Source of the DNA: Poseidonibacter ostreae | GTDB lineage: Bacteria > Campylobacterota > Campylobacteria > Campylobacterales > Arcobacteraceae | Length of the DNA stretch: 64,000 bases | Assembly (NCBI RefSeq): GCF_009208075.1 | Contig: NZ_WFKJ01000003.1 | Location: 62,001 to 126,000 of the forward strand | Reading direction: 5' to 3' | Part shown: positions 30,547-57,078 of the stretch, piece after piece | How the letters are laid out: every line of letters starts with the position of its first letter | Position numbering within the stretch: position 1 is the stretch's first letter | Notes under the pieces: model-generated | What the model saw: the letters and a program-made list of their open reading frames with translations, nothing else | Database searches by the model: none | Told to the model about the DNA's origin: nothing | Position numbers and translations under genes: made by a program

Positions 30547-32691
30547 TTATTCTTTAAATCTTTGAATATTTTTTTTCATTATACTACTATTATTCTCACC
30601 ATTATTCATTGGAAAAAGACTATAATTTGGACTTGCGTATTTACCAACGTCTCTTGTCCATGGACTCAATCCATAATTTAATATAGATTTAATATTTTTA
30701 TACGTGAATACCTCTAATGGAACTTTTAGATATATACCTTTATCTATATAACCTTTATTTGATTCACTATCAAAAACTTCATCACTATTTGTAATAGTTG
30801 CAAAAACTCCTAGAGTAAACTCTTTGCTATGTCTTGATATATCTATTTTTACACCTTTATCACCTGCTAAGAATTCTCCAACTTTTAATCCCATATGAAG
30901 ATCATATTTTGGTGATACTAAAGCATATAAATTCAAAAACTTAGCATCATAAGTTAGGTCATCATAAACTGCTAACATATCATCTACATGTCGTTTGTAC
31001 ATATACTGATATTGAAGCCCAACACCAAATTTCTCATTATAAAAAGTTTTATACCATTCTAAATCTAATCCAGCAAAGGCAAAATCCATATATCCAAGTT
31101 CGATTTTTGCTAAACTATTTAAGGGGGTATTTGTCATATATCCAAGAGTAAGCTTTCTTAGTTGTGTTCCATTATATTTATAGTAATCAATCATATTTGA
31201 TCTAATAGACAAGTCATTTGTTTCTAAAGCTTCATCTGTTGATATTTCATCAATATCATTGTAAAGTGGATGTTGTATCATACCTACTGCAAAAACTCCA
31301 GGAGATGGATTGTATTTTAATTTTAGGCTTGCTGATAATTTTGTTGCAAGAGGTTTATCTTGATTATTTAAATATGTTTTAATTACAGGACTAATATTAT
31401 ATGAGAAAACTTTTTCGTTGTATTCTTTTGATCTGTAAACAGTTTTCTTTTCTTCTCTAAACTCTTTATACATTTTATCAACACTTTTTGTAAGTATTAA
31501 GGCATTTTGCATATATTCATTACTAACTTTTTCATTTTCAAAAGCATCATATTCTTTTCTATTTACTTTGAAAGTTTTTACAGGAGTATTTTTTTCCTTT
31601 AAAGTAGCATAAATAATATCATAATTTTTTGGTGCAACTTCGTCAACAGTTGATATAGCTCTTCCTACAGCTTTTAAGTCACTGTTATATCTAGGATTGT
31701 CAAATTCTAGCCAAACTTTATTTTTATTTACAGAGGCTCTTACATTAGACATTTTTTCAGCTGCGACTTCATTTGCAAGTTTTTCACTTAATTGTTCTTC
31801 ATTTAAATTCTTATATTCTTCTAATTTCTTTTCATTAGCTTTCCATTTTGGATCAGGAAGTCTAGGAAACATTGCATTTCTTGAAAAACCAAATTGATAA
31901 GCATATCCAAATGAGATTTGATTTCCTCTTTGAAAAGATAGGCTTAGATTTGAATTATCATTGAAAGCATATTTAGCACCAAAATTTATTTTTGAGTCTG
32001 GCAAATCATAGCTACCTCCATTTGTAAAAGGGTTAGCTCTAGCTTTTTCATAATCAATAGGTGAATATTCAGACATAATCTTTAAATTTGGTGTTGCATT
32101 AAAAATTACACTTCCAAAAGGTTTTCCACCATCCCAACTCAAATCTTTCATAAAGTTAAAAGCTGTGTTATCAGAACTTCCACTATTTGAACTAGTTGTA
32201 GCTTCTACAGAACCTCCACCAAGTCTTCCTTTTGCATATCCAAGTGTAAAATCAAAGTATCCAATCTCTTTACCTAAAGCGACATACTTTGATGTATAAA
32301 GTCCAGTTCCCCAAATATCATCACCGCCAAATACTACACTTGGTAAGTACTTTTTTTCTTCTTGCAATATTAATTTAAAACTTAATGATTTATCTTTGTA
32401 ATCACCATAACCTGAATTTTCATCAAAGCCATCAACTCCATCGATTTCAGTCATATGAAAGTTTATTTCTAAAAAAGGTAGCGGTGTGATAGCTACTCCA
32501 TAATATGTATATGGTTTATCCTGATTTAAAAAAAGTCTCATAGACCAATCAGGCATAATTCTAGTATTTGGTGTTTCAAAAATACCTGTATTTCCAGAAT
32601 AGTTTGCAGTATCATTTTTTGCACTTAATGTAAGTGCTGATAATACAAGAGGAAATAAAATAGTCCCTAAGGGTTTACTTTTTTTCATCAT
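30547..32691 (-). CDS. YjbH/GfcD-like outer-membrane exopolysaccharide protein
   Basis: A 714-aa exported protein with signal peptide (about residues 1-24, ending LTLSAK). The N-terminal part shows YjbH-family traits: GNTGIFETPNTRIMPDWSMRLFL followed by TPLPFLEINFHMTEIDG. The C-terminal half has alternating beta-strand patterns suggesting a barrel. YjbH/GfcD proteins are outer-membrane partners in group 4 capsule/EPS secretion. It overlaps the Wzz-like gene by 17 bases, so it is translated in a coupled way. ATG at 32691 or the adjacent ATG at 32688 may be used. Family call is good; the mechanism is not known in detail for any member. Confidence 0.8.
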   Translation of the reverse strand: MMKKSKPLGTILFPLVLSALTLSAKNDTANYSGNTGIFETPNTRIMPDWSMRLFLNQDKPYTYYGVAITPLPFLEINFHMTEIDGVDGFDENSGYGDYKDKSLSFKLILQEEKKYLPSVVFGGDDIWGTGLYTSKYVALGKEIGYFDFTLGYAKGRLGGGSVEATTSSNSGSSDNTAFNFMKDLSWDGGKPFGSVIFNATPNLKIMSEYSPIDYEKARANPFTNGGSYDLPDSKINFGAKYAFNDNSNLSLSFQRGNQISFGYAYQFGFSRNAMFPRLPDPKWKANEKKLEEYKNLNEEQLSEKLANEVAAEKMSNVRASVNKNKVWLEFDNPRYNSDLKAVGRAISTVDEVAPKNYDIIYATLKEKNTPVKTFKVNRKEYDAFENEKVSNEYMQNALILTKSVDKMYKEFREEKKTVYRSKEYNEKVFSYNISPVIKTYLNNQDKPLATKLSASLKLKYNPSPGVFAVGMIQHPLYNDIDEISTDEALETNDLSIRSNMIDYYKYNGTQLRKLTLGYMTNTPLNSLAKIELGYMDFAFAGLDLEWYKTFYNEKFGVGLQYQYMYKRHVDDMLAVYDDLTYDAKFLNLYALVSPKYDLHMGLKVGEFLAGDKGVKIDISRHSKEFTLGVFATITNSDEVFDSESNKGYIDKGIYLKVPLEVFTYKNIKSILNYGLSPWTRDVGKYASPNYSLFPMNNGENNSSIMKKNIQRFKE

Positions 32692-33589
32692 TTCTATTAC
32701 TTCTAATAAATTCTAAGAAAAAAGCCATAAAAATACCTAAAATAATAGATGTTACAAACGATACAGTTAAAATAAGCGCTCGTTTAGGATTTGTTTTTTC
32801 TTTGATATAAGCAACTCTACTATCTGTAAGTTTTGAAACAAAGTAGTAATCATTAGCAAGAGAGAATACTCTTTTTTGCATAAGTGCTGAAAGAGATTTA
32901 CTAAGCTGTTCTTTTAATGAAACATCATATGTGCTACTTAACTCTTTTTTATAATAATCTATTTGCTTGTCTATTTCTTTCATATCTTGGAATTTTATTT
33001 TTGATATTAATTCTTCTAAATAAATATCTACAAGCTCTTTTGCAAGAAATCTATCTACGTGTTCTGCACTTAGAACTATAAGACCAGATTTTTTGTCACT
33101 ACTTAATGATAATATACTATTTAGTGATTTATTTGTTGAAAATATAAGTTCTTCTTTACTTATTATTTTATTATTCTTTTCTTTTTTTGAATAAAAACTA
33201 TCAATACCCATTGCAAATACTAAGTTTTGAGGATTTGCAAGTTTATCGGCTAGATTATATTTTTCAATTAACAGTTTATTAAATTCATAATCTTTCAAGG
33301 TAGTTTGCATCATAGTAAATGGATCTTTTGAGTTTCCTCCACCTAAGGATACACCAGCAAGACTAGCTAAACCAGCTAGTCCTCCACTTGCTGATTTGCT
33401 TTCACTTTGAGGTGCTAGAATAATTTCTGATTTATATGAGTTTGGAATACTTAGTACATAAAATAAAGTCAAAAGAACTACAATAAAAGAAAAAGCTGCA
33501 ATTTTGTATTTATATCTTAATATTGTATTGAAAAGTTCTCTTAAATCTATTTCATCTTCTTCTATGAATTCTTGATTGGTGTTATTCAT
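32675..33589 (-). CDS. Wzz/GumC-type polysaccharide chain-length determinant
   Basis: A 304-aa inner-membrane protein with two membrane helices (about residues 30-50 and 273-295) flanking a periplasmic helical domain, as in Wzz. It lacks the C-terminal tyrosine-kinase domain of Wzc, and no BY-kinase is visible in the window. The N-terminal segment EDEIDLRELFNTILRYK is typical. I chose ATG 33589, behind a strong TAGGTGGA site at eight bases, over an in-frame GTG at 33601 which would overlap the upstream gene. It probably sets the length of the polymer exported by the SLBB protein next to it. Confidence 0.85.
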   Translation of the reverse strand: MNNTNQEFIEEDEIDLRELFNTILRYKYKIAAFSFIVVLLTLFYVLSIPNSYKSEIILAPQSESKSASGGLAGLASLAGVSLGGGNSKDPFTMMQTTLKDYEFNKLLIEKYNLADKLANPQNLVFAMGIDSFYSKKEKNNKIISKEELIFSTNKSLNSILSLSSDKKSGLIVLSAEHVDRFLAKELVDIYLEELISKIKFQDMKEIDKQIDYYKKELSSTYDVSLKEQLSKSLSALMQKRVFSLANDYYFVSKLTDSRVAYIKEKTNPKRALILTVSFVTSIILGIFMAFFLEFIRSNRNDEKK

Positions 33590-33590
33590 A

Positions 33591-36191
33591 TTATATTCCA
33601 CCTACTGTCTTAAGTGATGCAGCAGTAATTGCTAGGTTGTAAAGTATAGATGTTACATCTTTAGCAAATGCAATATCTGAAATTGTATCTATTCTTAAAG
33701 GTACTACAACTGTATCGCCTTTAAATATATCATTTGAATTTCCCCAAAAATAGTCATTTTCAATTTTTCTTGCTTCACCATTTGCTTTTACAATATAGAT
33801 ATAATCTTCATCTGCAAGTTCTGTAGCACCACCTGCTTTTTCTAGATAATCTTTTGCATCGCTTTTTCCATCATAAACAAAAGTATTTTGATTTAATACT
33901 TCACCTACTACAGATATAGTGTCATTTATTGCAGGTATAAATAGAGTATCTAGGTTTTTTAATGTTAAATTATGAGGTGAGTTAGCAAATCTATTTAAAT
34001 CATGATATAAATCTAAAGATACTCTTCCTATAGGCTTCTTTGTATCTGCTTCTTTTTCTAATTGTGTTACTGCAATAAGCATATTTTGTTTACTTTTTTT
34101 ATCTTCACCTGCTTCATTTGCCATAGCATTTGCTTGCATTGCTTTTGTTTTTAATCTATCTAGACTTTCCTCTAATCTTTTTATTTGAAGTTTTCTTACT
34201 TCATCTCTTGTGAATACACTTCCTTCTACAAATGCATATTTTGTAAATCCACCTGCACGAGCTAACACGCTAGATAGTTTTTCACCTTCAGCAATACTAT
34301 ATTTACCTGGATATTTTACTTCACCTTTTAATTCTACATATCTTTTTTCATTCCAATTTTCTATTGCAAAAATAGTCCACTCATCATCTTCAAAAATTGG
34401 AAGCTTTAAGTCAATAGCTTTCTTAAGATCTAAACTTAATATAGTTCTGATTCGCTCATCACCTTTTACTTCATATCTTGCAAGTTCACATCTTGACATC
34501 AATGTTTTCTTTGTTAATCCACCTGAAAGTTTGATAAGATCATTTATTGTTGTGCTTTTTGAAATATTGTAAGTACCTGGTATAAAAATCTCACCTTTTA
34601 TTGTTGCTCTTTTTATTTCATTTGTTTGCTCAAAATCAAAGAAATTAATTTCGTCATATGGTTTTATTTCAAAGTTTCCATTTGTTTTTATATCAACAAA
34701 ATGTGTAATCTTTTTATTGTTTTCTATTCTTGTAACTTGCACTTTTGTTTTGTCAGGATTTAATGCTACTCTTTCTTCATCAACTTCTTTTTCAGTTTTA
34801 AAATTAACTATACTAAATAAATCTTTTGCCTTTAATCCTTCATAAAAATCATATTTACGATTATCATCACTTACTATTTCACCATTAGCATATATATAAG
34901 CGATTTCTTTAAATTCTGATTTGTTGTATATTATTATTTCATCACCACTTTTGAGAACTATATCTTCCTTCATAGAAAGAACATTTTTTAAATTAAAACT
35001 TCTTGAAATGTCTAGATTTTTAACAAGTGCATATTCATAGTTTGTATCTACTTTGAAGAAACCATTTTTACCAAATATTTTTAGCTCATTATTTAATAAA
35101 GTAGAAAGTTTATTATCTTTTGGAAGTTCTTTTTCTCCTGGAATTAAAACATTTCCAGAAATTTTTACTAGGTTTGCATTTTGTGCACTTAAAGCAAATA
35201 TTTCAATTTCATCACCATTTTCTGGCTTCATTGAATACAGTTGATTTACTGAAAGAGTATATACTTTAATTGTATTGTTTTTATATCTTTTTAATTTAAT
35301 AGCGTTTTTATTAGCTTTTGCTTTTAGTCCTGACGCAAAGTTAAAAAGTGTTCTAAAAGATTCATCATTATTTAGTTCATAAATTGCTTGATTTTTTACT
35401 TCACCTTTTATAGTGATTTCTTTTTTTACTGAATTAACTATTATAATATCACCACTTTTAAGTACTATATCAGAACTATTGTTTCCATATCTTACTAAAT
35501 TATATAGATCAAATGTTTTAATAATTTTACCATCTCTTTTAATTGATATATTTCTATATGAACCACTAGGTAAAATTCCTCCACTATTTATCAGTGCATC
35601 TTTTATAGTAGAAAAAGAAGAAAGATTATAAAGTCCTGGTGCTTTTACCAGTCCAGAAACTGTAACTTGTATAGATGTAAATTCAGATATATTTATAAGT
35701 ATATCTGTAGAATTTGGATAAGCCTTTTTTATTTCATCAGTTATTAGTTTTTTTGCTTCATAAAATGATAATCCAATCAGTTTAAATTCACCTGCTTGCG
35801 GTATAGTAATATTTCCATCTTTGTTTATATTTAAGTTGAAACTTTCGCTTACTGCTCCAAAGATTGTAACAGATAGTTTATCACCATAGTTTAATAGATA
35901 ATTTTTTGGTGTAGGTATAGAGTAGGGATCTATGTCGTTTTTATTTTGAAAAAATTGTGAAGCATATCTTTGCAGAATAATCTCATCATTTTCAATCTCA
36001 TCATTTTCAATCTCATTTTTAATAATTTGTTGTTTTTTAACAATCTGTTCTTCTTTTGAAGTAGAAGATAATGCTTTTTTTACATCATCTTGTGTATATC
36101 CTGCACTTTGTAACAATTGCAGTTGAGCTGGTGTTGGTTCTGCTGAAAATAAACTCAAACAGAATATAGAGACTAATATTAAAAACTTCAT
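33591..36191 (-). CDS. Multi-SLBB polysaccharide export protein (Wza/GfcE type)
   Basis: An 866-aa outer-membrane exporter with a signal peptide (residues 1-16, SLFSAEP). It has a polysaccharide export (PES) domain at about residues 85-180 (NYLLNYGDKLSVTIFG, GNITIPQAGEF) and then repeated SLBB-type segments (VSGLVKAPGLYNL, IKGEVKNQAIYEL, ISGNVLIPGEKEL, IKGEIFIPGTYNI, LKGEVKYPGKYSI, VVGEVLNQNTFVY). This is far longer than E. coli Wza (about 379 aa); the extra SLBB units would lengthen the periplasmic channel. It is the first gene of the minus-strand export operon, divergent from the synthesis operon. Confidence 0.9.
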   Translation of the reverse strand: MKFLILVSIFCLSLFSAEPTPAQLQLLQSAGYTQDDVKKALSSTSKEEQIVKKQQIIKNEIENDEIENDEIILQRYASQFFQNKNDIDPYSIPTPKNYLLNYGDKLSVTIFGAVSESFNLNINKDGNITIPQAGEFKLIGLSFYEAKKLITDEIKKAYPNSTDILINISEFTSIQVTVSGLVKAPGLYNLSSFSTIKDALINSGGILPSGSYRNISIKRDGKIIKTFDLYNLVRYGNNSSDIVLKSGDIIIVNSVKKEITIKGEVKNQAIYELNNDESFRTLFNFASGLKAKANKNAIKLKRYKNNTIKVYTLSVNQLYSMKPENGDEIEIFALSAQNANLVKISGNVLIPGEKELPKDNKLSTLLNNELKIFGKNGFFKVDTNYEYALVKNLDISRSFNLKNVLSMKEDIVLKSGDEIIIYNKSEFKEIAYIYANGEIVSDDNRKYDFYEGLKAKDLFSIVNFKTEKEVDEERVALNPDKTKVQVTRIENNKKITHFVDIKTNGNFEIKPYDEINFFDFEQTNEIKRATIKGEIFIPGTYNISKSTTINDLIKLSGGLTKKTLMSRCELARYEVKGDERIRTILSLDLKKAIDLKLPIFEDDEWTIFAIENWNEKRYVELKGEVKYPGKYSIAEGEKLSSVLARAGGFTKYAFVEGSVFTRDEVRKLQIKRLEESLDRLKTKAMQANAMANEAGEDKKSKQNMLIAVTQLEKEADTKKPIGRVSLDLYHDLNRFANSPHNLTLKNLDTLFIPAINDTISVVGEVLNQNTFVYDGKSDAKDYLEKAGGATELADEDYIYIVKANGEARKIENDYFWGNSNDIFKGDTVVVPLRIDTISDIAFAKDVTSILYNLAITAASLKTVGGI

Positions 36192-42318: not shown

Positions 42319-44334
42319 ATGATAGTGGAAAATAAATATAGAAAGAATATTTTGATTTATGCAATTTGTATTAAATTAATAATATTAATATTATTTTCAT
42401 CTGAATATAATGATTTACTTTTTTATTCATTTTTAACCTCAATATCATTTGAAAACCTTAATCCTTGGCAATATTATATTGAGAATAGTATGAATCTAGA
42501 ATCATTCCCATACCATGGGTTGATGCTTTTTTTACTTGCACCTTTTGCTTTACTAGGAGAGATTATTGGGATGGGCGAAATACTGATAAAAATTCCTTTA
42601 CTTATATCTGACGTAGGAATTTTATTTGTTCTTTTAAAGCTTTTCCCTCATAAAGAAAAAAATATTTACATGTATTATTTTTTAAACCCTATAATACTTT
42701 ATTCTACATATATTCACTCTCAATTAGATATAATTCCCACAGCTTTGCTTTTTGCAAGTGTTTATTTTTTGGCTCTACAAAGACTAAAAATATCTGCATT
42801 ATTTCTAGGCTTTGCACTTGCTACAAAATTTCATGTTATCATTGCTTTGCCATTAATTTTGTTTTATCTTTATAGAAAATTTTATTTTAAGAGTATTTTA
42901 ACATATTTAATAATTTCTATTTTAGTTTTTATCACTTTTGATTTACCCTTTATTTTTAGTGATGGTTTTATTCATATGGTACTTTTTAATCCTAAACAAT
43001 CACTACTTTTTGATACTTTTTATCTTATAGGTTCAGTAAAGATACTACTTCCTGTAGCTGCTATTTGTATGGTTTATTTTCACTTTTTTAATCAAAATAA
43101 AGTCAATGATGATTTATTGTTCTTTTACTTTGGGCTTCTCTTTACTGCTACTATATTCTTCATCTATCCTGGTCCTGCTTGGTATGTGTGGATGATTCCA
43201 TTTGTAACTATCTATTTTATACAAAATCAAAATCAAAGTAAAACGCTCATTTTATATGGTGCTTTTTCTTTTACATATCTTTTATTTTTTATATTCTTTT
43301 ATAAAAGTGAATATCAAGATATGTTATTTTTAGGTAAGGTAATAGACTTTAAAATTCATAATGAAAATTTGCAAAACCTATCATTTACATTATTAGAAGT
43401 CACGCTATTAGCGATTATGTATGCATTTTATAAGCATGGTATCAAAAGTAATTCTATTTATAAAAAACAAACGAACCTAACTATTGGTATTGGTGGAGAT
43501 AGTGGAGTTGGTAAATCAACACTTATTAAAAATCTTGAAAATATATTGGGTGATAAACTGATTCAATTAGAAGGAGATGGTGAGCATAAATGGGAAAGAG
43601 GAGATGAAAACTGGTCAAACTTTACACATCTTGATCCAAAAGCAAATCATATACATAAACAAGCAGAATCGATACTAAGACTCAAAAACAATCAAGAAAC
43701 TTATAGAAATGAGTACGATCATTCAACTGGTAAGTTTACAGAAGCTTTTAAAATTACACCAAAAGAGTTTATAGTTATAGCGGGACTTCATCCATTCTAC
43801 CTGCCAAAACTACGAAAGAACATAGATCTTAAAGTATATATAGACACTGATGAAACACTAAGAAGACATTGGAAAATCATCCGTGATACTAAAAAAAGAG
43901 GTTATTCAGTAGAAAAAATTATAGAGCAAATTGAGACTCGTGTTGAAGATGCTAGGAAATATATCTATCCACAAAAAGAGTTTGCAGACTTAGTTATCAA
44001 ATATTTTTCACTAGAAGAATTTAAACTGGGTGATAAATCTGAAATTATAAACCTTGGCTTAAAGATAACTCTAGATGCAAATATTCATATAGAAGATGTA
44101 TTAGAAAGATTAGATGTAAAAGCTGATTGGGACTATAATGAAGATTTACAATCTCAATATTTAATTTTAAAAGATATACCAAAAGTAGGTTTTGAGGATA
44201 TAGCTATAGATACTATTGAAAATATAACAGAGATTATACCATCAGGAATAATCTGGAGTAGTGGATATGATGGATTACTAGAGCTTATATCTTTAAAAAT
44301 GATAAGTGAAAAACTAAAAGAGGAAAATAGATGA
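42319..44334 (+). CDS. GT-C membrane protein fused to a uridine-kinase-like P-loop kinase
   Basis: A 671-aa fusion. Residues about 1-375 are polytopic, with roughly ten or more hydrophobic segments. They include HSQLDIIPTALLFASVYFLA and GFALATKFHVIIALPLILF, a pattern typical of GT-C glycosyltransferases that use polyprenyl-phosphate sugars. Residues about 386-600 form a phosphoribulokinase/uridine-kinase-like domain: Walker A GGDSGVGKST (392-401), EGDGEHKWERGDENW, AGLHPFYLPKLRKNIDLKVYID and RRHWKIIRDTKKRG. ATG 42319, two bases after the fcl stop, is preferred to an earlier in-frame start that would overlap fcl. It is ATGA-coupled to the HAD gene. I know of no characterised protein with this fusion; the substrate is unknown. 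Confidence 0.72.
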   Translation: MIVENKYRKNILIYAICIKLIILILFSSEYNDLLFYSFLTSISFENLNPWQYYIENSMNLESFPYHGLMLFLLAPFALLGEIIGMGEILIKIPLLISDVGILFVLLKLFPHKEKNIYMYYFLNPIILYSTYIHSQLDIIPTALLFASVYFLALQRLKISALFLGFALATKFHVIIALPLILFYLYRKFYFKSILTYLIISILVFITFDLPFIFSDGFIHMVLFNPKQSLLFDTFYLIGSVKILLPVAAICMVYFHFFNQNKVNDDLLFFYFGLLFTATIFFIYPGPAWYVWMIPFVTIYFIQNQNQSKTLILYGAFSFTYLLFFIFFYKSEYQDMLFLGKVIDFKIHNENLQNLSFTLLEVTLLAIMYAFYKHGIKSNSIYKKQTNLTIGIGGDSGVGKSTLIKNLENILGDKLIQLEGDGEHKWERGDENWSNFTHLDPKANHIHKQAESILRLKNNQETYRNEYDHSTGKFTEAFKITPKEFIVIAGLHPFYLPKLRKNIDLKVYIDTDETLRRHWKIIRDTKKRGYSVEKIIEQIETRVEDARKYIYPQKEFADLVIKYFSLEEFKLGDKSEIINLGLKITLDANIHIEDVLERLDVKADWDYNEDLQSQYLILKDIPKVGFEDIAIDTIENITEIIPSGIIWSSGYDGLLELISLKMISEKLKEENR

Positions 44335-45011
44335 GATATAAAGGATTATTATTAGATATAGACAATACTCTATATGGGTATGATTCAACACACAAAATTG
44401 CAAAAAATAGTGTTCTAGATTATTGTAATAGTAAATTTAATCTTACAAACACAAGTATTGAAGAAGCTTATGATATAGCTAGAAAAAAAGTACATATAGA
44501 GCTAAGTGAAACTGCATCTTCACACAATCGACTTTTATATATTCAAAAGATGTTAGAACATCTAAATATCAATCCACTTGAACATACTCTAGATATTTAT
44601 AACATTTACTGGGATACTTTTTTAGAAAATATGAAACCATTTGATGGAGTGTATGAATTATTAGAGATGTACAAAGGTAAAATTTGTTTAGTTACAGACC
44701 TTACTGCACATATACAGCATAGAAAAGTGCAAAAGTTAGAATTAGATAGATATTGTACAAAAATAGTGACAAGTGAAGAGTCTGGTCGAGAAAAACCACA
44801 TCCTTATATGTTTATGTCTGCATTAGGAAAGCTTGACTTAAAAGCAAAAGATGTCTGCATGATAGGAGATAGCTTAAAGAAGGATATTGTTGGAGCATCT
44901 AGTTTAAACATAAAATCAATTTGGTTAAATAGTGATAAAAAAATAGAAAACTATGATAATACTTTAGTTCAAGAAGTAAAAACATTTAATGAAATATTGG
45001 AGTTGGTATGA
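44331..45011 (+). CDS. HAD superfamily hydrolase
   Basis: A 226-aa soluble phosphatase-type protein with HAD motif I LLLDIDNTLYGYD (nucleophile Asp about residue 8), motif II VTDLTAHI, motif III Lys near REKPHPYMF, and motif IV MIGDSLKKDIVGA. The helical cap (about residues 15-90) places it in subfamily I. Four-base overlaps on both sides tie it to the kinase fusion and the aldolase. It probably dephosphorylates an intermediate of the same pathway; the substrate cannot be read. Confidence 0.85.
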   Translation: MRYKGLLLDIDNTLYGYDSTHKIAKNSVLDYCNSKFNLTNTSIEEAYDIARKKVHIELSETASSHNRLLYIQKMLEHLNINPLEHTLDIYNIYWDTFLENMKPFDGVYELLEMYKGKICLVTDLTAHIQHRKVQKLELDRYCTKIVTSEESGREKPHPYMFMSALGKLDLKAKDVCMIGDSLKKDIVGASSLNIKSIWLNSDKKIENYDNTLVQEVKTFNEILELV

Positions 45012-46078
45012 GTGAAATAAAAGATTTGGTTGAGATATCAAAGTATGCAGGTGAGAGATTTGATCTAGTTCAAGCTGGTGGTGGAAATAGTTCTGTCAAA
45101 TATGACAATGATGAAATGATTATCAAAGCATCTGGTTTTCTGCTTAGTGAGCTAGGTGAAAATAATGGATACTCTAAAGTTGTAACGTCTAAAATAGCAT
45201 CTATTGTAAAAGATCAAACTATAATAAATAGCAAAGATAAAAGAGAAAGAGAGTCTTTAACTTCACAACTTGTAAAAGATTTTACACTAGACAAAGAGAA
45301 TCGTCCATCAATAGAGACACTTTTACACTCATTTTTACATAAATATACTCTTCATACTCATCCTATTGTAGTCAATATGATAGTGATTCAAAAAGATTAC
45401 AAAAATATACTAAAAAGTATTTTTAAAGATAAAAGCATAGCAATAGTTGAGTATAAAACTCCAGGAATAGAACTAGCTTTAGCTCTTGATACAGAGTTAT
45501 CTAACATTGAAACAATTCCAAACATCATATTTTTACAAAATCATGGTTTGATAGTTACATCAAATCATAAAAATGAGATAAAACAGATTACAGAAAATGT
45601 AATAACAAAAATATCTAAATATCTAAATATAGAAATGGATAGATATAAAATGACAAATAGTATCACATATCTTTTAAATGCTATAGAAAAAAATTCAAAC
45701 ATCTCATATTTAAGCGAAGATATTTATTTAAATAATAAATTAAACACAAATAAAGAACTATTTTTTAATACACCATTTTGTCCAGATAGTTTAGTTTACT
45801 GTGGGATAAGTTGTTGTGAAATAGAAAATCTATTTGATATCGAAAGTTTACAAAACTATAAAGAAAGATACTTTGAACTACCAAAAGTAATAAGTTATAA
45901 GCACAATCTGTTCTTCATAGCTCAAAATATAAAAAAGGCAAAAGAAATAGAAGAGGTTTTTAAATTTCATATAATGGTTTTAGAGAAAAATAGGAAAAGA
46001 GATAATAGTTTTTTAGAGATGAAAGAATTAGCATACCTCAGTAATTGGGAAGCTGAAAAATATAGACAGAAAGTATAG
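45008..46078 (+). CDS. Class II aldolase/adducin family protein
   Basis: A 356-aa protein with the fuculose/rhamnulose-type class II aldolase fold. The phosphate-binding loop is QAGGGNSSVKYD (about residues 22-33), the first metal site is LHTHPIVVNMI, and the second His is in FLQNHGLIVTS. The C-terminal third, after about residue 215, extends beyond the usual 210-240-aa enzyme and has two Cys-containing stretches (TPFCPDSLVYCGISCCE). Family members split or epimerise phosphorylated sugars. ATGA overlap with the HAD gene and proximity to a kinase and a nucleotidyltransferase suggest a sugar-building role here. Confidence 0.82.
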   Translation: MSEIKDLVEISKYAGERFDLVQAGGGNSSVKYDNDEMIIKASGFLLSELGENNGYSKVVTSKIASIVKDQTIINSKDKRERESLTSQLVKDFTLDKENRPSIETLLHSFLHKYTLHTHPIVVNMIVIQKDYKNILKSIFKDKSIAIVEYKTPGIELALALDTELSNIETIPNIIFLQNHGLIVTSNHKNEIKQITENVITKISKYLNIEMDRYKMTNSITYLLNAIEKNSNISYLSEDIYLNNKLNTNKELFFNTPFCPDSLVYCGISCCEIENLFDIESLQNYKERYFELPKVISYKHNLFFIAQNIKKAKEIEEVFKFHIMVLEKNRKRDNSFLEMKELAYLSNWEAEKYRQKV

Positions 46079-46089
46079 GAGATAAAATA

Positions 46090-47736
46090 ATGCACATAAT
46101 AGTACCAATGTCAGGAATAGGAAAAAGATTTATAGACGCAGGATATAAAGATCCAAAACCATTGATAGTAATAGATGGTAAACCAATAATAGAACATGTT
46201 TGTAATTTATTTCCAAATGAAACTAAATTTACATTTATCTGTAACTCAAAGCATTTAGCAGAGACAAATATGAGAGAGGTGCTGCTAAGCATAAAACCAA
46301 ATGCAAATATTGTAGAGATACCTAACCATAAAAAAGGTCCAGTTTATGCAGTATCACTTGTAGAAGATTTTATAGAAGATGATGAAGAAGTGATAGTAAA
46401 TTATTGTGACTTTGGTACATATTGGGACTATGCTGACTTTTTAAAACACACTAGAGATAGAGATGCAGATGGAGCGGTTCCATCTTATAAAGGATTTCAT
46501 CCTCATATGTTAGGAAGTACAAACTATGCATTTATGAGAGATGAAAATCAATGGATGCTTGAGATAAAAGAGAAAGAACCATTTACAGACAATCGTATGA
46601 ACGAATACGCTTCAAATGGAACTTATTACTTCAAAAAAGGCTCTTATGTAAAAAAATATTTTAAAGAGCTAATGGATAAAGATATAAATCTTAAAGGTGA
46701 GTTTTATGTATCTCTTATTTATAATCTATTGGTTGATGATGTATTGAAAGTTTCTATTTATGATGTTCAACATATGCTTCAGTGGGGAACACCTCAAGAT
46801 GTTGAAGAGTACAATACTTGGTCAAAATATTTTAGAGATGTTATTGAGGAAAAAGAGAAACCTAAAGCACAAAAAAACAGTATTACCCTTATTCCACTTG
46901 CTGGTCGCGGAAGTAGATTTGCCAAAGTTGGATATAAAGATCCAAAACCTCTTATTGATATTAGTGGTAAGCCGATGATAATACAAGCTGCAAACTCTTT
47001 ACCAAATAGCAAAAAACATATCTTTGTCACACTACAAGAGCATTTATCTAAATATCCTCTAGAAGATACTTTAAAAAATGAATATCCAAACTCTAAAATA
47101 ATCCCAATAGATGAAGTAACAGAAGGACAAGCTATCACTTGTAGTTTAGGATTAAAAGATGTAGATACAAATGCTTCACTTCTTGTAGCAGCTACAGATA
47201 ATGGAATGATATATAATCATGAAAAATATCAAAGTTTAGTAGAAGATAAAAATGCAGATGCAATTATTTTTACATTCCGACATCATGTAAGTAGTAAAAA
47301 TAACCCTCAAATGTACGGATGGGTAAAAACGGATGATAAAGACAATGCAACTGGTGTATCTGTAAAAGTCCCTATTTCTGATAATCCATTTGAAGACCAT
47401 GCGATAGTTGGAACATTTTGGTTTAAAAAAGTTGAGTATTTTAACAAAGCTTTAGAAAAATTATTAGCCAAAGATATAAGAGTAAATGGTGAGTATTATG
47501 TAGATAGCTTAATGGGTGAGCTAATAGAACTAGGACTTAATGTTAAAGTATTTGAAGTAGATGATTATATCTGTTGGGGAACACCTGATGATTATGAAAC
47601 ATTTGTTTATTGGCAAAGTTTTTTTCATAAAGTAGATTGGCATCCATATAGCTTAGAAAAAGACATAACTGTTAATCAAGATAAAATAGAAATACTAAAT
47701 AAAAAATATAGAGCATTTAATCAAGAGAATAGATGA
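46090..47736 (+). CDS. Tandem sugar nucleotidyltransferase
   Basis: A 548-aa protein made of two related nucleotidyltransferase domains. Domain 1 (about residues 1-255) has PMSGIGKRFIDAGYKDPKPLI and a WGTPQDVEEYNTW end. Domain 2 (about 262-548) has PLAGRGSRFAKVGYKDPKPLI and WGTPDDYETFVYW. Both keep the glycine-rich NTP loop and the Lys of PKP, so both may be active, but domain 1 has SGIG where domain 2 has AGRG. It probably makes one or two NDP-activated compounds from the phosphates produced by the preceding kinase/aldolase genes. It is four-base-coupled to the GtrA gene. Confidence 0.8.
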   Translation: MHIIVPMSGIGKRFIDAGYKDPKPLIVIDGKPIIEHVCNLFPNETKFTFICNSKHLAETNMREVLLSIKPNANIVEIPNHKKGPVYAVSLVEDFIEDDEEVIVNYCDFGTYWDYADFLKHTRDRDADGAVPSYKGFHPHMLGSTNYAFMRDENQWMLEIKEKEPFTDNRMNEYASNGTYYFKKGSYVKKYFKELMDKDINLKGEFYVSLIYNLLVDDVLKVSIYDVQHMLQWGTPQDVEEYNTWSKYFRDVIEEKEKPKAQKNSITLIPLAGRGSRFAKVGYKDPKPLIDISGKPMIIQAANSLPNSKKHIFVTLQEHLSKYPLEDTLKNEYPNSKIIPIDEVTEGQAITCSLGLKDVDTNASLLVAATDNGMIYNHEKYQSLVEDKNADAIIFTFRHHVSSKNNPQMYGWVKTDDKDNATGVSVKVPISDNPFEDHAIVGTFWFKKVEYFNKALEKLLAKDIRVNGEYYVDSLMGELIELGLNVKVFEVDDYICWGTPDDYETFVYWQSFFHKVDWHPYSLEKDITVNQDKIEILNKKYRAFNQENR

Positions 47737-48101
47737 GTAAGATTAAAAAAGAGTTAAAGAGGTTTTTAGTAGCAGGGTTAAGTGCAGTTGGAACTGACTT
47801 AGTTACATACTATATGTTATTAAACTTTTTACCTCATGATATTGCAAAAGCGATCTCTTTTCTTTTAGGAACTGTAGTTGCTTTTATTATCAACAAATAT
47901 TGGACTTTTGAGAAATACGAAAGATCATATAAAGAAATATTAAAATTTGCACTACTTTATAGTGTAACACTAGGAGCGAATGTAGTGACGAATAACTTGT
48001 TTTTAGAATATACAAGTTTAGTATTTGTAGCATTTTTAGTAGCTACGGGAGTTAGTACGGTACTTAATTTTATTGGACAGAAATGGTGGGTTTTTAGATG
48101 A
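47733..48101 (+). CDS. GtrA family membrane protein
   Basis: A 122-aa protein with four membrane helices and the GtrA-family features KRFLVAGLSAVGTDLVTYYML and FLLGTVVAFIINKYWTFE. GtrA proteins are thought to flip undecaprenyl-phosphate-linked monosaccharides across the inner membrane. With the GT2 gene at 50649 and the GT39-like gene at 49081 it would complete a three-part side-branch glycosylation module. Four-base overlaps with both neighbours. Confidence 0.88.
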   Translation: MSKIKKELKRFLVAGLSAVGTDLVTYYMLLNFLPHDIAKAISFLLGTVVAFIINKYWTFEKYERSYKEILKFALLYSVTLGANVVTNNLFLEYTSLVFVAFLVATGVSTVLNFIGQKWWVFR

Positions 48102-49084
48102 CTAGAGATTTGAAATTGGACTCATTAAAAGGATTTTTAATTGTTCTTGTAGTAATTGGTCATATACCATTTGGCAGTTTTAACATAGAAAGAATATCTA
48201 TAATAAAATATTTTGGTCAATGGTTTTATATTTTTCATATGCCTTTGTTCTTTGCTGTTAGCGTATTATTTATTAAAACTGATTATCAATGGCTATTTAA
48301 AAGAGCAAGTTTAGTATTAATTCCATACTTATTTTGGTTTTTTTATGGACATAAACGAATGTTATTAGAAAATCCAATTGAGTTCATGGGGGGGGTACTC
48401 ATGGGTAATTGGAGTACACTCAATTCAATATTATGGTTTTTACCTGCTTTATTTACATTAAATTTACTTTTCTTTTTATTCAAAAAATCAAATAAGAAAA
48501 TACAAGTGCTATTTTTAATAATATCACTTGCTTCATTTATTTATGCAAGTGAAATTGCAATGCTTCATTATCAAATACCTTTTGGTTTTGATGTTGCTAT
48601 ATATTTGTTTTTATTGGTTTTGACAATTAAATACATTTATGAAAATAAAGAAAGATTTATAAAAATTAATATGTATCAAATTTTAGGATTATTAATTATT
48701 TCATCACTGTTGTTATTTAATTTTGAACCTATTAAAACTCATTCACAATGGTATAAAATTATAGATTTGGCACAATTTTCAGTTGCAACTACAGTAATAG
48801 GATATATTTCATTTTTTATTTTAAATATATCTATTTTTATATTTTTTATTAAAATCAAATCAAATCAAATATTAGAGTTTATTGGAAATTATTCATTTCC
48901 TATTTTTTTATTACATTTAATAATCTTGTACAAACTACCTAATTTAATAAAATTTGATAGTAATTATACTAACTTTTTATTTTTATTAATAAGTACTGTT
49001 TTAAGTATTTTATTGCCAATTGTAATTTCAAAAATATTAATGAAAACAAGTGATAAATTTGAATATATAGGAATGGTAAAATGA
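48098..49084 (+). CDS. Acyltransferase 3 family, with G8 tract (phase-variable candidate)
   Basis: A 328-aa polytopic membrane protein with about ten helices and the acyltransferase-3 opening RDLKLDSLKGFLIVLVVIGHI with its catalytic His. Such enzymes O-acetylate or succinylate polysaccharides. A run of eight G residues (48388-48395) lies at codons 97-99. The gene is in frame as sequenced. One G fewer leads to TAA after about 25 codons; one G more gives TAA within seven codons. It is therefore a plausible ON/OFF switch. ATGA overlaps on both sides keep it inside the operon. Confidence 0.85.
   Translation: MTRDLKLDSLKGFLIVLVVIGHIPFGSFNIERISIIKYFGQWFYIFHMPLFFAVSVLFIKTDYQWLFKRASLVLIPYLFWFFYGHKRMLLENPIEFMGGVLMGNWSTLNSILWFLPALFTLNLLFFLFKKSNKKIQVLFLIISLASFIYASEIAMLHYQIPFGFDVAIYLFLLVLTIKYIYENKERFIKINMYQILGLLIISSLLLFNFEPIKTHSQWYKIIDLAQFSVATTVIGYISFFILNISIFIFFIKIKSNQILEFIGNYSFPIFLLHLIILYKLPNLIKFDSNYTNFLFLLISTVLSILLPIVISKILMKTSDKFEYIGMVK
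48388..48395 (+). repeat. Poly-G tract (G8)
   Basis: Eight consecutive G residues inside the first acyltransferase gene. Runs of this length are strongly under-represented in such A+T-rich DNA and are the classical slipped-strand contingency signal of Campylobacterota. Confidence 0.9.
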
Positions 49085-50652
49085 AAATAATCTCAGTAAT
49101 AGTCCTAATTGCACTAGTGTATTTAAACTACAGGCACTTAAATATAGGTTTTTTATCTCTTTATAGCATAGACGAATACGCTTTTCATGGTAGTTTGCTC
49201 AACATGTACGATGGCTTAGTTTCCTTAGATATCAAAAAGCTTTTTTCTTTTGGATTTTATAGCTATGGATTTGGCTTTTTCTTTTTAAATCTTTTAGCTA
49301 CAGTTCCATTTTTTGCTACAGACAACATAGAGATGACCATATATATGCCAAGGATTATAACATCACTTTTTGCAGTTGGTTCTGTATGGTTTGTTTATAA
49401 AATAGCGAGAGTGTATGTAGATAGATATAGTTCTGTACTAATAGCCTTACTTATTTTTACCATGCCAGGTTTTTATAGAAATGCATTATGGTTTCATCCA
49501 GATTGGATGATGACTTTTTTTGTTGTATTATCTGTATATCTTTTTGTTAAAGATAATTTTAAATACAAAAAGTTTTTTTGGTGGGCAGTAGTGACTTTAG
49601 GTTTTGCTATATCTACAAAGATACAAGCTATAACATTTTTACCTTTTGTTTTTGTCTATATATTTTATGAAAGTTTTCAGAAAAAGTCTTTTATAAATAT
49701 CAAGATAGGCTTAAAACTATTTGCTAAATCATTTGTATCTTTAGTAGCTATTTTTGTAATTACTAATCCTTATTTAATACATCCAAGTGGCCTAAAAGTA
49801 TTTGTTGCTATGTTTCTTGCGAATATGGAGTCAAATGCAACAAACCATGGTAAAGTTGGAACTGTGACTATTGGAGAAAAGCTTTCAAATGCTATTAATT
49901 TTTACTACCTTGAAAGTTTTTTATTTATTATTTTAATTCTAATTTCTCTTGTAGTCTTATTTTCTATTTTTTATAAAAACAAAAGTAAATCTATTTTGCC
50001 TTTGATAGCTCTTTACATTGTTTTAAATATTGGTTATTTGTTTTTAATGGTAAATAAAGATTGGCAACACTACTATTTGACTATTTTTACACTTACTCCT
50101 TTACTTTTGATATATCTAAGAGATAAATTTCCAAAGTATAAATACTTTTTTCTAATAGGTGTATTGGTTGTTCAAGTATCTACCCACATTGATGAATATA
50201 AATATGTCTTTACAAAAGGATTTCACTCAAAAGAGATCAGTAAATCAAAACAAGATGATATAAGCCATAGTTTGATAGCAATATTGAGTCCTGTAGTTGA
50301 TAAAGATACGAATATCTTGATAAGTTCGTATCAGCCTTTTGATTTTAGAATCTTAGGATTAAACTATAAAAATATTCATGGGATATATGGACCTATAGCA
50401 CTTCATAGTATAAAACTAGATGCATATTTAGAAAAATCAAATTCTAAAGATCCATCAAAGTTTGTAGAAAAAGATTTTATTGTTTTATCTAAAGAAGATA
50501 TATATTTTGATGAGCAAAAACTATCTAAAATGGTTGATAAAGAAGGCTTTCTAAAAGCTGAACAAATCATATATAATTTCAATCAAGGTGGAAATTTAGG
50601 TTATGAAAAATACGCTGAAAATGAATACTTTTATGTATGGAGAAGAAAATGA
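49081..50652 (+). CDS. GT39/PMT-like polytopic glycosyltransferase
   Basis: A 523-aa membrane protein with roughly ten to twelve helices and a C-terminal soluble tail. The early SIDEYAFHGSLLNM loop carries the acidic residues typical of GT-C enzymes of the ArnT/PMT type, and MPRIITSLFAVGSVWFVYKIAR is a typical second helix pair. It should transfer a sugar from undecaprenyl phosphate in the periplasm. GtrA upstream and a DPM-like GT2 downstream fit this. ATGA-coupled on both sides. Confidence 0.78.
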   Translation: MKIISVIVLIALVYLNYRHLNIGFLSLYSIDEYAFHGSLLNMYDGLVSLDIKKLFSFGFYSYGFGFFFLNLLATVPFFATDNIEMTIYMPRIITSLFAVGSVWFVYKIARVYVDRYSSVLIALLIFTMPGFYRNALWFHPDWMMTFFVVLSVYLFVKDNFKYKKFFWWAVVTLGFAISTKIQAITFLPFVFVYIFYESFQKKSFINIKIGLKLFAKSFVSLVAIFVITNPYLIHPSGLKVFVAMFLANMESNATNHGKVGTVTIGEKLSNAINFYYLESFLFIILILISLVVLFSIFYKNKSKSILPLIALYIVLNIGYLFLMVNKDWQHYYLTIFTLTPLLLIYLRDKFPKYKYFFLIGVLVVQVSTHIDEYKYVFTKGFHSKEISKSKQDDISHSLIAILSPVVDKDTNILISSYQPFDFRILGLNYKNIHGIYGPIALHSIKLDAYLEKSNSKDPSKFVEKDFIVLSKEDIYFDEQKLSKMVDKEGFLKAEQIIYNFNQGGNLGYEKYAENEYFYVWRRK

Positions 50653-51350
50653 AATTATCAATAGTAGTACCTTGCTACAACGAAGAAAAAAATATACCTT
50701 TGATTTTAGAAAAATTCCAAAGCGTAATTAATAGAAATGATGTAGAGGTCCTTTTAGTGAATAACGGATCAACAGACAACAGTCAAACGGTTTTTGATGA
50801 ACTTGTCCCAAAATACACTTTTGCTAGGGTTGTAAATATAGATGAAAATCAAGGTTATGGTTTTGGTATAACATCTGGACTAAATAAAGCAACTGGAGAG
50901 TTTATAAGTTACACACATGCTGATATGCAAACAGACCCATCCGATGTACTTAAATCTCTTGGAATCATAGAAAAACAAGACAATCCTATACACTGCTATG
51001 TAAAAGGTGACAGAAAAGGCAGACCTCTTTTTGATCAGATTTTTACTATGGGGATGAGTGCATTTGAGAGTATATATTTAGGTAAAAAACTTTGGGATAT
51101 AAATGCTCAACCAAATATTTTTCACAAAAGTTTTTTTGACTCTGTAAAACTAAGTTGTCCAAAAGACTTTTCACTTGACTTATACTTTCTATATAAAGCT
51201 CAAATAGATGGACTTGATGTTATCCGATTTAATGTAGTTTTCCCTGAAAGACTTCATGGCGAATCAAGTTGGAATGATGGTTTTGCTTCAAAGTGGAAAT
51301 TTATCAAACGAACACTTGCTTTTAGTTTTAAACTTAAAAAGGAATTATAA
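50649..51350 (+). CDS. GT2 glycosyltransferase, polyprenyl-phosphate sugar synthase (GtrB/DPM1-like)
   Basis: A 233-aa family 2 glycosyltransferase with MKLSIVVPCYNEEKNIPLIL, the NNGSTDNS and SYTHADMQTDP (DxD-like) motifs, and a Rossmann-type GT-A core. It has no C-terminal membrane helices, unlike GtrB of Shigella phages, so it resembles soluble DPM1. I start it at ATG 50649, which overlaps the preceding stop as ATGA, rather than four codons earlier. Probable role: making the Und-P-sugar used by the GT39-like enzyme. Confidence 0.82.
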   Translation: MKLSIVVPCYNEEKNIPLILEKFQSVINRNDVEVLLVNNGSTDNSQTVFDELVPKYTFARVVNIDENQGYGFGITSGLNKATGEFISYTHADMQTDPSDVLKSLGIIEKQDNPIHCYVKGDRKGRPLFDQIFTMGMSAFESIYLGKKLWDINAQPNIFHKSFFDSVKLSCPKDFSLDLYFLYKAQIDGLDVIRFNVVFPERLHGESSWNDGFASKWKFIKRTLAFSFKLKKEL

Positions 51351-51352
51351 AT

Positions 51353-51943
51353 ATGGAATATATAGCACATAGAATCAACACCATTGAAGAATTGAAACAA
51401 ATACCAAAAGAGTATGGTGTAGAACTTGATTTAAGAGACTATTCAGATAGACTTGTATTGCAACACGATCCATTTACAGATGGAGAAGATTTTGAAGAGT
51501 ATCTAAAATACTATGAGCATGGTACTATGATACTAAACATTAAAAGTGAAAGAATAGAACATAAAGTCTTAGAACTTATCCAAAAGTATAACATCAAAAA
51601 ATACTTCTTTTTAGATAGCTCCTTTCCTATGACATATTTACTCTCAAAAAGTGGTGAGAAGAATATTGCTCTTAGATTTTCAGAATTTGAGGGAACAGAT
51701 ACTATTTTAAATATGAAAGATAAAGTAGATTGGATATGGGTAGATTGTTTCTCAAAACTACCAATAAACAAAGAAAATTACAAATTACTAAAAGAAAATG
51801 GCTTTCAATTTTGTCTAGTATCACCAGAACTTCAAGGTCAAAAGGATAAGATTGAAGAGTATAAAGATTACTTGAAAAAAGAAGAAATAATTTTTGATGC
51901 TATTTGCACAAAATGTTATAATGTAGAAAGGTGGAATAAATAA
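51353..51943 (+). CDS. GDPD/PLC-like TIM-barrel phosphodiesterase
   Basis: A 196-aa protein with the N-terminal glycerophosphodiesterase pattern AHR (residues 5-7), GVELDLR (about 21-27) and LQHDPF (about 35-40), which together supply the catalytic His pair and the Glu/Asp metal ligands. It has no signal peptide and is shorter than typical GDPD enzymes (about 240 aa), so the barrel may be minimal. Its place among polymer-building genes suggests it acts on a cytoplasmic phosphodiester or nucleotide-linked intermediate, or recycles a phosphoglycerol substituent. This is inference. Confidence 0.7.
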   Translation: MEYIAHRINTIEELKQIPKEYGVELDLRDYSDRLVLQHDPFTDGEDFEEYLKYYEHGTMILNIKSERIEHKVLELIQKYNIKKYFFLDSSFPMTYLLSKSGEKNIALRFSEFEGTDTILNMKDKVDWIWVDCFSKLPINKENYKLLKENGFQFCLVSPELQGQKDKIEEYKDYLKKEEIIFDAICTKCYNVERWNK

Positions 51944-55309: not shown

Positions 55310-56227
55310 ATGAAAAAAATAGCAAAATTTATACCTCCACAACCATTAAAGACAGCAGTTTTATTTTTAGTATTTAATCGTCTTGATACAACTAAACAAG
55401 TGTTTGACTCTATCAGAAAAGCAAAACCACCAAGGCTTTATATAGCTGCAGATGGACCAAGAGAAACAAAAGAGGGAGAAAGCCAAAAAGCTCAAGAAGT
55501 AAGAGAGTATATTTTGTCAAATATAGATTGGGAATGTGAAATAAAAACACTTTTTAGAGAACAAAACTTAGGTTGTAAGATGGCTGTAAGTGGAGCTATC
55601 GACTGGTTTTTTGAAAATGAAGAGATGGGAATTATCTTAGAAGATGACTGTCTCCCAAGCCAGAGTTTTTTTTGGTTTTGTGAGGAGTTATTAGAGAAGT
55701 ATAAGAATGATATGAGGGTTGGAATGATTAGTGGTTTTAACTATGGATATAAAAATAAAGATTTAACATATGATTACTTTTTTTCAAAATATGGTTTTAT
55801 TTGGGGTTGGGCTTCATGGAAAAGAGCTTGGAAACATTATGATATTACTATGGAAAATCATATAGAAGCAAAAAAAATAGATTTATATGAAAATTATTTT
55901 AATGCAAATAAAAAACAACAAATAGCAAATTTTGAAAGTGTTTTTAATAATTCAATGAATACGTGGGACTATCAATGGTCATATGCTAGGTTAATTAATA
56001 ATTCTTATTCAATAGTTCCTTCTAAAAATTTAATTGAAAATATAGGCTTTGGTGATGATGCAACTCATACCTTTGGTAATAATCCTTATGAAAAATTACA
56101 GAAAGTTGAATATAATAATATTAACTTAAATCATCCAAGCTATATTATACAAATGAGTGATTTTTATACTATATTTGAGAAGAAAAATAACTTATTTAAT
56201 AAAGTTATAAGGAGAATACTTAAATGA
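55310..56227 (+). CDS. Glycosyltransferase, GNT-I-like GT-A type
   Basis: A 305-aa protein with AVLFLVFNRLDTTKQVFDSI, PPRLYIAADGPRETKEGE and the acidic GIILEDDCLPSQSFFWFCEELL metal motif, a pattern seen in bacterial glycosyltransferases related to N-acetylglucosaminyltransferase I. The WGWASWKRAW stretch is also typical. It overlaps the PhyH gene by four bases. The sugar transferred is unknown. Confidence 0.75.
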   Translation: MKKIAKFIPPQPLKTAVLFLVFNRLDTTKQVFDSIRKAKPPRLYIAADGPRETKEGESQKAQEVREYILSNIDWECEIKTLFREQNLGCKMAVSGAIDWFFENEEMGIILEDDCLPSQSFFWFCEELLEKYKNDMRVGMISGFNYGYKNKDLTYDYFFSKYGFIWGWASWKRAWKHYDITMENHIEAKKIDLYENYFNANKKQQIANFESVFNNSMNTWDYQWSYARLINNSYSIVPSKNLIENIGFGDDATHTFGNNPYEKLQKVEYNNINLNHPSYIIQMSDFYTIFEKKNNLFNKVIRRILK

Positions 56228-57078
56228 ATCAAGATTACAAAAAACAATTTGAAGAACAAGGTTTTGTGATACTAAAAAAAGTCTTTTCAAAAGAAAAACT
56301 TGAAGAAGTAAGAATTTTACAAGAAAAAATTGTAACTTATTCTGATATGAACTTTGAAGATCCTTTTTTACCTTGGTCATTAGAACATAGAAATGATCAA
56401 GGGGTACTGTTTGATTTATATCAAAGACATCCAGAGTTTCAGGAAATGGCAAAAAATAAAAAAATTTTAGATTGTTTAGAATCAGTTTTAGGTGAAAATA
56501 TTTATTTATATGATAACTCAATGGTGTATAAACCCAAGGGTAAACGAAATGGTGTTCCCTGGCATCAAGATTTTATTTCAAGACCGGAAGAACCTCAGAA
56601 AATAATTGTTTGGATGGCCCTAGATGATGTAACAAAGGAAAATGGTACTGTCCAAGTAATTCCTGGAAGTCATAAAGAAGGACATCTTCCCTGGCATAGA
56701 GTTGATGGGGAAACTCACCATGATAGAGTTAATATTGAATATGTGGAAAAGAAGAAAGATAAAATTATTTATGCTGAATTAGAAGCTGGTGATGTATTAC
56801 TTTTTAATATGTTAGTCTTACATGGTAGTGATGAAATACATACGGATAGACCTAGAAGAGTATTTAGATGTTCTTATCAGTCTATGGAGAAAAAAATATT
56901 TACACCAAGACAATCACCTATAGTGATGAGAGGTGGAAGTCCTGAATTTTTAGCAAAGTATTACAATAATCCATATGTTAAACCTAAGAAAAAGTCTATA
57001 CCCTTAAGAGCAATAAATAAACTAGGAAGGATTTTGGCTAACTATGGCAGTAAAACAACAACTAATTCAGCTTATTAA
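56224..57078 (+). CDS. Phytanoyl-CoA dioxygenase (PhyH) family Fe(II)/2-oxoglutarate oxygenase
   Basis: A 284-aa cupin-fold oxygenase. The iron site is the WHQD motif (His and Asp) with a distal His in VLHGSDEIHTDRPRRVFR, whose Arg likely binds 2-oxoglutarate. KENGTVQVIPGSHKEGHLPWH is a family signature. PhyH enzymes hydroxylate or oxidise small molecules, lipids or sugars. In a glycan operon, and followed by a radical SAM enzyme, it probably modifies a sugar or an acyl/amino substituent. The exact target is unknown. Confidence 0.82.
   Translation: MNQDYKKQFEEQGFVILKKVFSKEKLEEVRILQEKIVTYSDMNFEDPFLPWSLEHRNDQGVLFDLYQRHPEFQEMAKNKKILDCLESVLGENIYLYDNSMVYKPKGKRNGVPWHQDFISRPEEPQKIIVWMALDDVTKENGTVQVIPGSHKEGHLPWHRVDGETHHDRVNIEYVEKKKDKIIYAELEAGDVLLFNMLVLHGSDEIHTDRPRRVFRCSYQSMEKKIFTPRQSPIVMRGGSPEFLAKYYNNPYVKPKKKSIPLRAINKLGRILANYGSKTTTNSAY

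Follow-up and report, generated by a model that had tools for sequence, protein, structure and literature searches.

Three-component periplasmic glycosylation is already known, and both the GtrA/GtrB/Gtr systems of O-antigen glucosylation and the GT136 pentofuranose system, whose polyprenyl phosphoribose synthase acts on PRPP and whose flippase is of the MATE family, bring together an undecaprenyl phosphate (Und-P)-sugar synthase, a flippase and a periplasmic GT-C glycosyltransferase (PMC11127046). Counterparts of these three components are predicted in the locus described here, which lies in a 64,000-nucleotide stretch of the Poseidonibacter ostreae genome (the window), but here the GT-C shares one polypeptide with a kinase of the phosphoribulokinase (PRK) type, and the locus has donor-synthesis enzymes of its own. 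Gtr systems can be phage-borne, as is the related gene module on one viral contig (L059). The GT-C fold is shared with GPI mannosyltransferase I (PIG-M), ALG3 and PimE (Z 20-29 for the predicted structure), from which the window half differs in its sequence (10-13% identity) and in carrying a fused kinase. In the heptose pathway (HldE/HddA, the HAD enzyme GmhB and a nucleotidyltransferase), a kinase makes a bisphosphate, the HAD enzyme removes one phosphate and the nucleotidyltransferase activates the product; the scheme proposed below would share this logic, with a kinase of an unrelated family and with aldolase and GDPD-like enzymes that have no counterpart there.

The catalytic Asp-His dyad of PRK has been described (PMC9978339), and the cyanobacterial and plant enzymes (6hzk, 6kev) have the kinase fold, the dyad and a KxxRDxxxR motif in common with the fused kinase, which differs from them in having TH[LY]xPxxN for T[APV]LxPxxN and [AS]GLH for EGLH, in its fusion to a membrane domain, and in its occurrence in glycan loci of hosts without RuBisCO. 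The HAD/phosphoribulokinase capsule gene BN865_07180 of C. coli 76339, for which the source describes no function (PMC3928612), has by name and gene order the same type of kinase as loci L007-L014 and L020, where it has aldolase, twin nucleotidyltransferase and GDPD-like neighbours; unlike the window fusion, BN865_07180 has a HAD partner and no GT-C, with no GT2 or GtrA. Neither the fusion of PRK and GT-C nor the donor module around it was found described in the open-access literature searched.

The fusion gene and its two halves

The gene occupies positions 42319-44334 of the window (+ strand) as a single continuous frame of 671 codons, in which approximately ten hydrophobic helices (within residues 1-375) are followed by a complete PF00485 kinase (residues 384-671, E 1.9e-36) with the P-loop GGDSGVGKST at residues 392-401, confirming what a preliminary description of this DNA had read as one open frame joining a membrane part to a complete P-loop kinase. 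An alternative in-frame ATG at 42292 would give a protein of 680 aa and overlap the upstream fucose-synthase-like gene, which runs to 42316. Elsewhere in Campylobacterota, relatives that share this architecture over their full length occur at 62% (G038/L002, L022), 70% (G151/L005) and 70% (L021) identity, the closest named relatives being an Aliarcobacter MAG and an uncultured Campylobacterales MAG. More distant full-length relatives, at 26-28% identity over 83-96% of the length, were located on Azospirillum brasilense p5, Hirschia baltica pHbal01 and an E. coli IncR plasmid; the fusion is also encoded on two IMG/VR viral contigs, again at 26-28% identity over most of its length. The pairing of domains thus recurs in other Campylobacterota, three plasmids and two viral contigs, with the join uninterrupted in near and distant relatives alike, so that a sequencing error at the junction, which the preliminary description had raised, is ruled out by many independent genomes; the fusion of GT-C and kinase is a real gene and no artefact.

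In one homologue (G407, L006/L018) a frameshift was seen in a T8 run of the membrane half, away from the junction (L018 10653-10671); several other module genes of that locus also look broken, as pseudogenes or through phase variation or sequencing errors. The homologue of G151 (L005/L017) has a 5' end without a normal start codon that adjoins a replication-like gene, which suggests that a mobile element inserted upstream of it.

The N-terminal half (42319..43470, about 375 aa) was modelled with AF2 on its own, with two distant viral-contig homologues added to the input, giving a pLDDT of 73 and a pTM of 0.82; a model of the full-length fusion with three similar sequences reached a pLDDT of only 36. 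VIA-align placed the model of the half closest to GPI mannosyltransferase I (9wno_A, Z 29.1 over 344 residues), followed among other GT-C chains by ALG3 (Z 25.9) and ALG6 (Z 24.1), with PIG-U, PimE, ArnT, OST, Emb and AftD also ranked. The top 46 chains were all GT-C (Z 29.1 to 8.1), and the next, unrelated chain scored Z 6.6. A seven-sequence profile searched against the PDB matched GPI mannosyltransferase 1 alone (E 4.2e-7). Other searches returned less: the best Foldseek E for the model was 1e-4, the BFVD fold search gave nothing below E 0.001, single-sequence Pfam matches to GT87, ALG3 and Alg6_Alg8 all fell below cut-off, and a phage record collection held no match to the window protein across the membrane half. 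As modelled, the N-terminal half is a GT-C fold, and the GT-C character first proposed from the letters alone is borne out by both profile and predicted structure. Invariant residues of this half include W50, F63-P64-Y65, D98, D137 and K170. The acidic residue that active GT-Cs typically have in the first periplasmic loop is nearly conserved: most of the seven sequences have it at residue 32 or 33, and the E. coli plasmid copy lacks it. The modelled fold suggests that this half is probably a polyprenyl-phosphate-sugar-dependent glycosyltransferase, and the GtrA and GtrB-like partners predicted beside it are consistent with such a donor.

The C-terminal half (43471..44334, +), with its PRK-like C-terminal region, had been called uridine-kinase-like, which holds at the level of the broad family PF00485; phosphoribulokinases score far better, in PDB profile searches (203 against 80 bits for uridine kinase; 6hzk E 2.7e-59 against 1.7e-21) and in NCBIfam (187 against 82 bits), and the residues kept are those of the PRK type. 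A uridine kinase identity is ruled out by these scores together with the active-site residues. For the PRK model NF005655, the 187 bits of the window kinase and the 205.5 bits of the E. coli copy both lie below the cut-off of 236. Across 14 homologues of four architectures, D420, H423, R427, Y466, H468, K519, R522, D523, R527 and the P-loop (G398-K399) were invariant, D420 and H468 being, by alignment, the counterparts of the PRK dyad. The family signature is D..H..R....W...TH[LY].P..N, where Calvin-cycle PRKs have T[APV]L at the TH[LY] site. By family, dyad and P-loop, the C-terminal half is a predicted PRK-type kinase. RuBisCO (PF00016) was not found in the six genomes tested, with control genomes positive, which rules out a Calvin-cycle role for the kinase there. 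A tree of the kinases was compatible with a single and with multiple origins of the GT-C fusions.

The gene module and its distribution

The fusion gene lies in a surface-polysaccharide locus. Before it, at 36793, 40055 and 41264, are a mannose-1-phosphate guanylyltransferase-like gene (identified by its sequence), Gmd and a GDP-fucose-synthase-like epimerase; after it, at 51944 and 53268, are Wzx and a UDP-sugar dehydrogenase, and the locus has other transferases besides. Facing this locus is a divergent set at 30547-36191 (-) of YjbH, Wzz and SLBB/Poly_export type, which is an exopolysaccharide export set. Inside the polysaccharide locus, a radical SAM gene is overlapped by one for a PhyH-type dioxygenase (56224-58201), odd company for glycan genes.

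Seven genes recur together: those for a twin nucleotidyltransferase, GtrA, a GT2, a GDPD-like hydrolase, the GT-C-kinase fusion, a HAD enzyme and a class II aldolase. In the window, all on the + strand, the fusion is followed by a HAD phosphatase (44331..45011) whose best match is ribulose-1,5-bisphosphate 5-phosphatase (NF053830, 1.2e-50), as it is for the E. coli plasmid HAD (2.2e-49), both below the family cut-off. Next is a class II aldolase/epimerase-type enzyme (45008..46078; PF00596, 2.7e-14) with the catalytic E, HxH and H conserved in alignment, for which, as for the E. coli copy, ketose-1-phosphate aldolases were the best matches. A twin-domain sugar-phosphate nucleotidyltransferase (46090..47736; PF00483 in two stretches) and a GtrA-type candidate flippase for lipid-linked sugar (47733..48101; PF04138, 8.1e-23) are followed by an acyltransferase 3 (48098..49084; PF01757), a local addition that is absent from the modules of relatives, and by a second, variable membrane protein of PMT_2-type GT-C character (49081..50652; PF13231, 33.1 bits, cut-off 26.1), whose counterpart in other modules is an unrelated or distantly related membrane protein. 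The set ends with a GtrB/dolichyl-phosphate-mannose-synthase-like GT2 that is a candidate Und-P-sugar synthase (50637..51350; PF00535, and PDB 5mlz over residues 4-211) and a GDPD/PI-PLC-like hydrolase (51353..51943), for which sequence searches of Pfam and the PDB gave nothing significant; its relatives carry the PI-PLC/GDPD family annotation. Every complete module has such a protein with conserved HR, ExD and H, and all complete modules of the fusion type have GT2, GtrA and GT-C together.

The module occurs in Campylobacterota, Alphaproteobacteria, E. coli and two IMG/VR contigs. The fusion is rare: a kinase search within the phylum was positive in 11 of the 397 sampled genomes, mostly for the HAD-fused type (an apparent match in G216 was rejected by inspection as a RecN-like ATPase), and in E. 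coli the fusion was present in two of 5,426 complete genomes, both times on a plasmid. These copies are on NZ_CP145712.1 (L024, IncR, with IS26 nearby) and NZ_JCAPUP010000005.1, the sources being human stool and a bullfrog. Kinase and twin nucleotidyltransferase were both present in 10 of the 396 other genomes and both absent from 385, with no genome having the kinase only and one, in which the module begins at a contig edge, having the nucleotidyltransferase only (Fisher 4.7e-19, a p-value that overstates independence since the sampled genomes are related). This weakness does not touch the occurrences on three plasmids and on viral contigs. In capsule loci of the Campylobacter type the five soluble enzymes remain, without GT2, GtrA and GT-C, which indicates that the donor-making core is separable from the membrane delivery part; one of these kinase loci (L020) has neighbours that by eye look KpsC/KpsS-like. 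On plasmid NC_016588.1 (L070) and in Rhizobium/Sinorhizobium, distant relatives of the twin nucleotidyltransferase, HAD phosphatase and GDPD-like protein are grouped beside a WavE-family LPS gene, with no annotated PRK-type kinase in these groups.

The kinase also changes its fusion partner. It is fused to HAD in Campylobacter (430-442 aa) and in IMG/VR loci L063 and L065-L068, to aldolase in IMG/VR loci L052-L058 (448-489 aa), and to a putative glycosyltransferase starting MKVALLIAGYLRSY in viral contigs L047, L050 and L051. That nearly all of these partners supply functions of the module itself is strong evidence for one shared pathway, and the free exchange of GT-C, HAD, aldolase and putative glycosyltransferase makes a clear Rosetta-stone case linking all parts. 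Six of the loci with the aldolase fusion (L052, L053, L054, L055, L057 and L058, one of them on a contig of 298 kb) also hold split nucleotidyltransferases, a small HAD-like protein and a GDPD-like protein, and some adjoin GDP-mannose dehydratase and fucose synthase-like genes. On IMGVR_UViG_3300034110_001068 (L059 4588-17768), a complete seven-gene module adjoins spanin, tail fibre and baseplate genes; its GtrA matches phrog_2224 ('GtrA-like O-antigen conversion') and its GT2 phrog_841 ('GtrB-like O-antigen conversion', 7.5e-18), and the nucleotidyltransferase, GDPD-like and aldolase proteins match PHROGs of unknown function. By analogy, this arrangement resembles the serotype-conversion clusters of prophages.

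Proposed pathway and alternatives

Our main reading, to which we give a probability of roughly 0.6, is that the fusion belongs to a surface-glycan module devoted to a single unusual sugar, whose donor it would synthesise and which it would attach outside the cytoplasm. The computed results are the domain identities, the fold, the conserved residues and the conservation of the module; the reactions, their order, the sugar and the acceptor are what we infer from them. The cytoplasmic PRK-type half would convert a ketose phosphate to a bisphosphate, from which the HAD enzyme would take the other phosphate. Shaping of the carbon skeleton, or removal of an intermediate, may fall to the class II aldolase-type enzyme and to the GDPD-like hydrolase, in either order, and the twin nucleotidyltransferase would activate the product to an NDP-sugar. 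The GtrB-like GT2 would then transfer the sugar to undecaprenyl phosphate, GtrA would flip the lipid-linked sugar and the GT-C half would pass it to a polysaccharide in the periplasm, although the second GT-C-like protein could be the real transferase of the locus. Against this reading stand the scores of kinase and HAD enzyme for the PRK and RuBP phosphatase models, which lie below the curated cut-offs, and the incomplete conservation of the first-loop acid in the GT-C half. The fusion would link the last, membrane-bound step of one pathway to an enzyme that acts early in it, in the cytosol, and its simplest purpose is probably co-expression or co-regulation, or holding the donor pathway at the membrane.

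The preliminary description had suggested that phosphorylation is coupled to membrane transfer, or that the membrane part recycles a lipid carrier. Membership of one pathway is upheld by the conserved gene module, and a covalent fusion kept across several bacterial classes could be read as direct coupling, with the GT-C half using or recycling a lipid phosphate or a product handled by the kinase half. GT-C active sites are extracytoplasmic across the superfamily, however, and the kinase, which depends on ATP, has to lie on the cytoplasmic side; the K-rich tail without acids that precedes it is as expected for a cytoplasmic segment. With opposite membrane faces and several enzymes between the two steps, direct hand-over of substrate is unlikely. 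The kinase is of PRK type and no lipid kinase, and elsewhere it is fused to HAD or aldolase without a GT-C. We consider direct coupling highly improbable, and the suggestion of lipid-carrier recycling found no support. It could instead be supposed that the kinase half is without catalysis and acts as a cytoplasmic sensor or scaffold, binding ATP or a sugar phosphate and regulating or anchoring the GT-C while other enzymes make the sugar. At the Glu of EGLH, every GT-C fusion has Ala or Ser (A488 in the window) and the GT-like fusions have Cys, where HAD and aldolase fusions have Glu or Asp, so that the fused kinase may have altered or lost activity. Against this, the P-loop Lys, the base Asp420, His468 and other PRK residues are invariant in the 14 homologues, which come from distant hosts, and the fusion modules have no second kinase of the same family, the fused kinase being the only strong PF00485 match in most genomes searched; a purely sensory or structural kinase half therefore appears unlikely.

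The nature of the product allows more than one reading. The GDPD-like hydrolase of every complete module and the resemblance of the aldolase to ketose-1-phosphate aldolases would fit a module making a nucleotide-activated polyol or glycerol-like group, in which the aldolase cleaves a ketose 1-phosphate and the GDPD-like enzyme trims a phosphodiester; GtrA, a GtrB-like GT2 and a GT-C are together the usual equipment for Und-P-linked sugars, and we regard a polyol or glycerol-like product as unlikely. Our leading guess for that sugar is a pentulose derived from ribulose 5-phosphate. Glycans with D-xylulose residues have been reported from C. jejuni RM1221, E. coli O95 and Devosia (PMC8707391), and D-xylulose is among the C. 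jejuni capsule sugars (PMC10919079). No description of its donor was found in the literature searched, no xylulose gene is named for RM1221 by Fouts et al. (PMC539331), and a literature search linking RM1221 with phosphoribulokinase found nothing. The described cluster of Y. enterocolitica O:10, whose O antigen contains L-xylulose, has no such kinase, HAD or aldolase genes, which means that xylulose can be made without the GT-C-kinase module, or via genes elsewhere. That the module is a route to a nucleotide- and lipid-activated pentulose (xylulose or ribulose, for example), with the PRK-type enzyme making RuBP or a stereoisomer in the absence of RuBisCO and the whole forming a serotype-conversion cassette spread by plasmids and phages, is put forward as a tentative proposal, held at clearly less than even confidence.

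Implications for surface glycans

There is a real chance that the GT-C-kinase module represents a new sugar-activation pathway. If so, PRK-type kinases would have a role beyond the Calvin cycle and the archaeal hexulose-phosphate pathway, and the gene set of kinase, HAD, aldolase, twin nucleotidyltransferase and GDPD-like enzyme would be a marker for strains with the sugar. The module makes the question of how ketopentoses enter bacterial glycans directly testable. Because capsule loci of Campylobacter, plasmids and viral contigs all carry the gene set, it may play a part in serotype variation.
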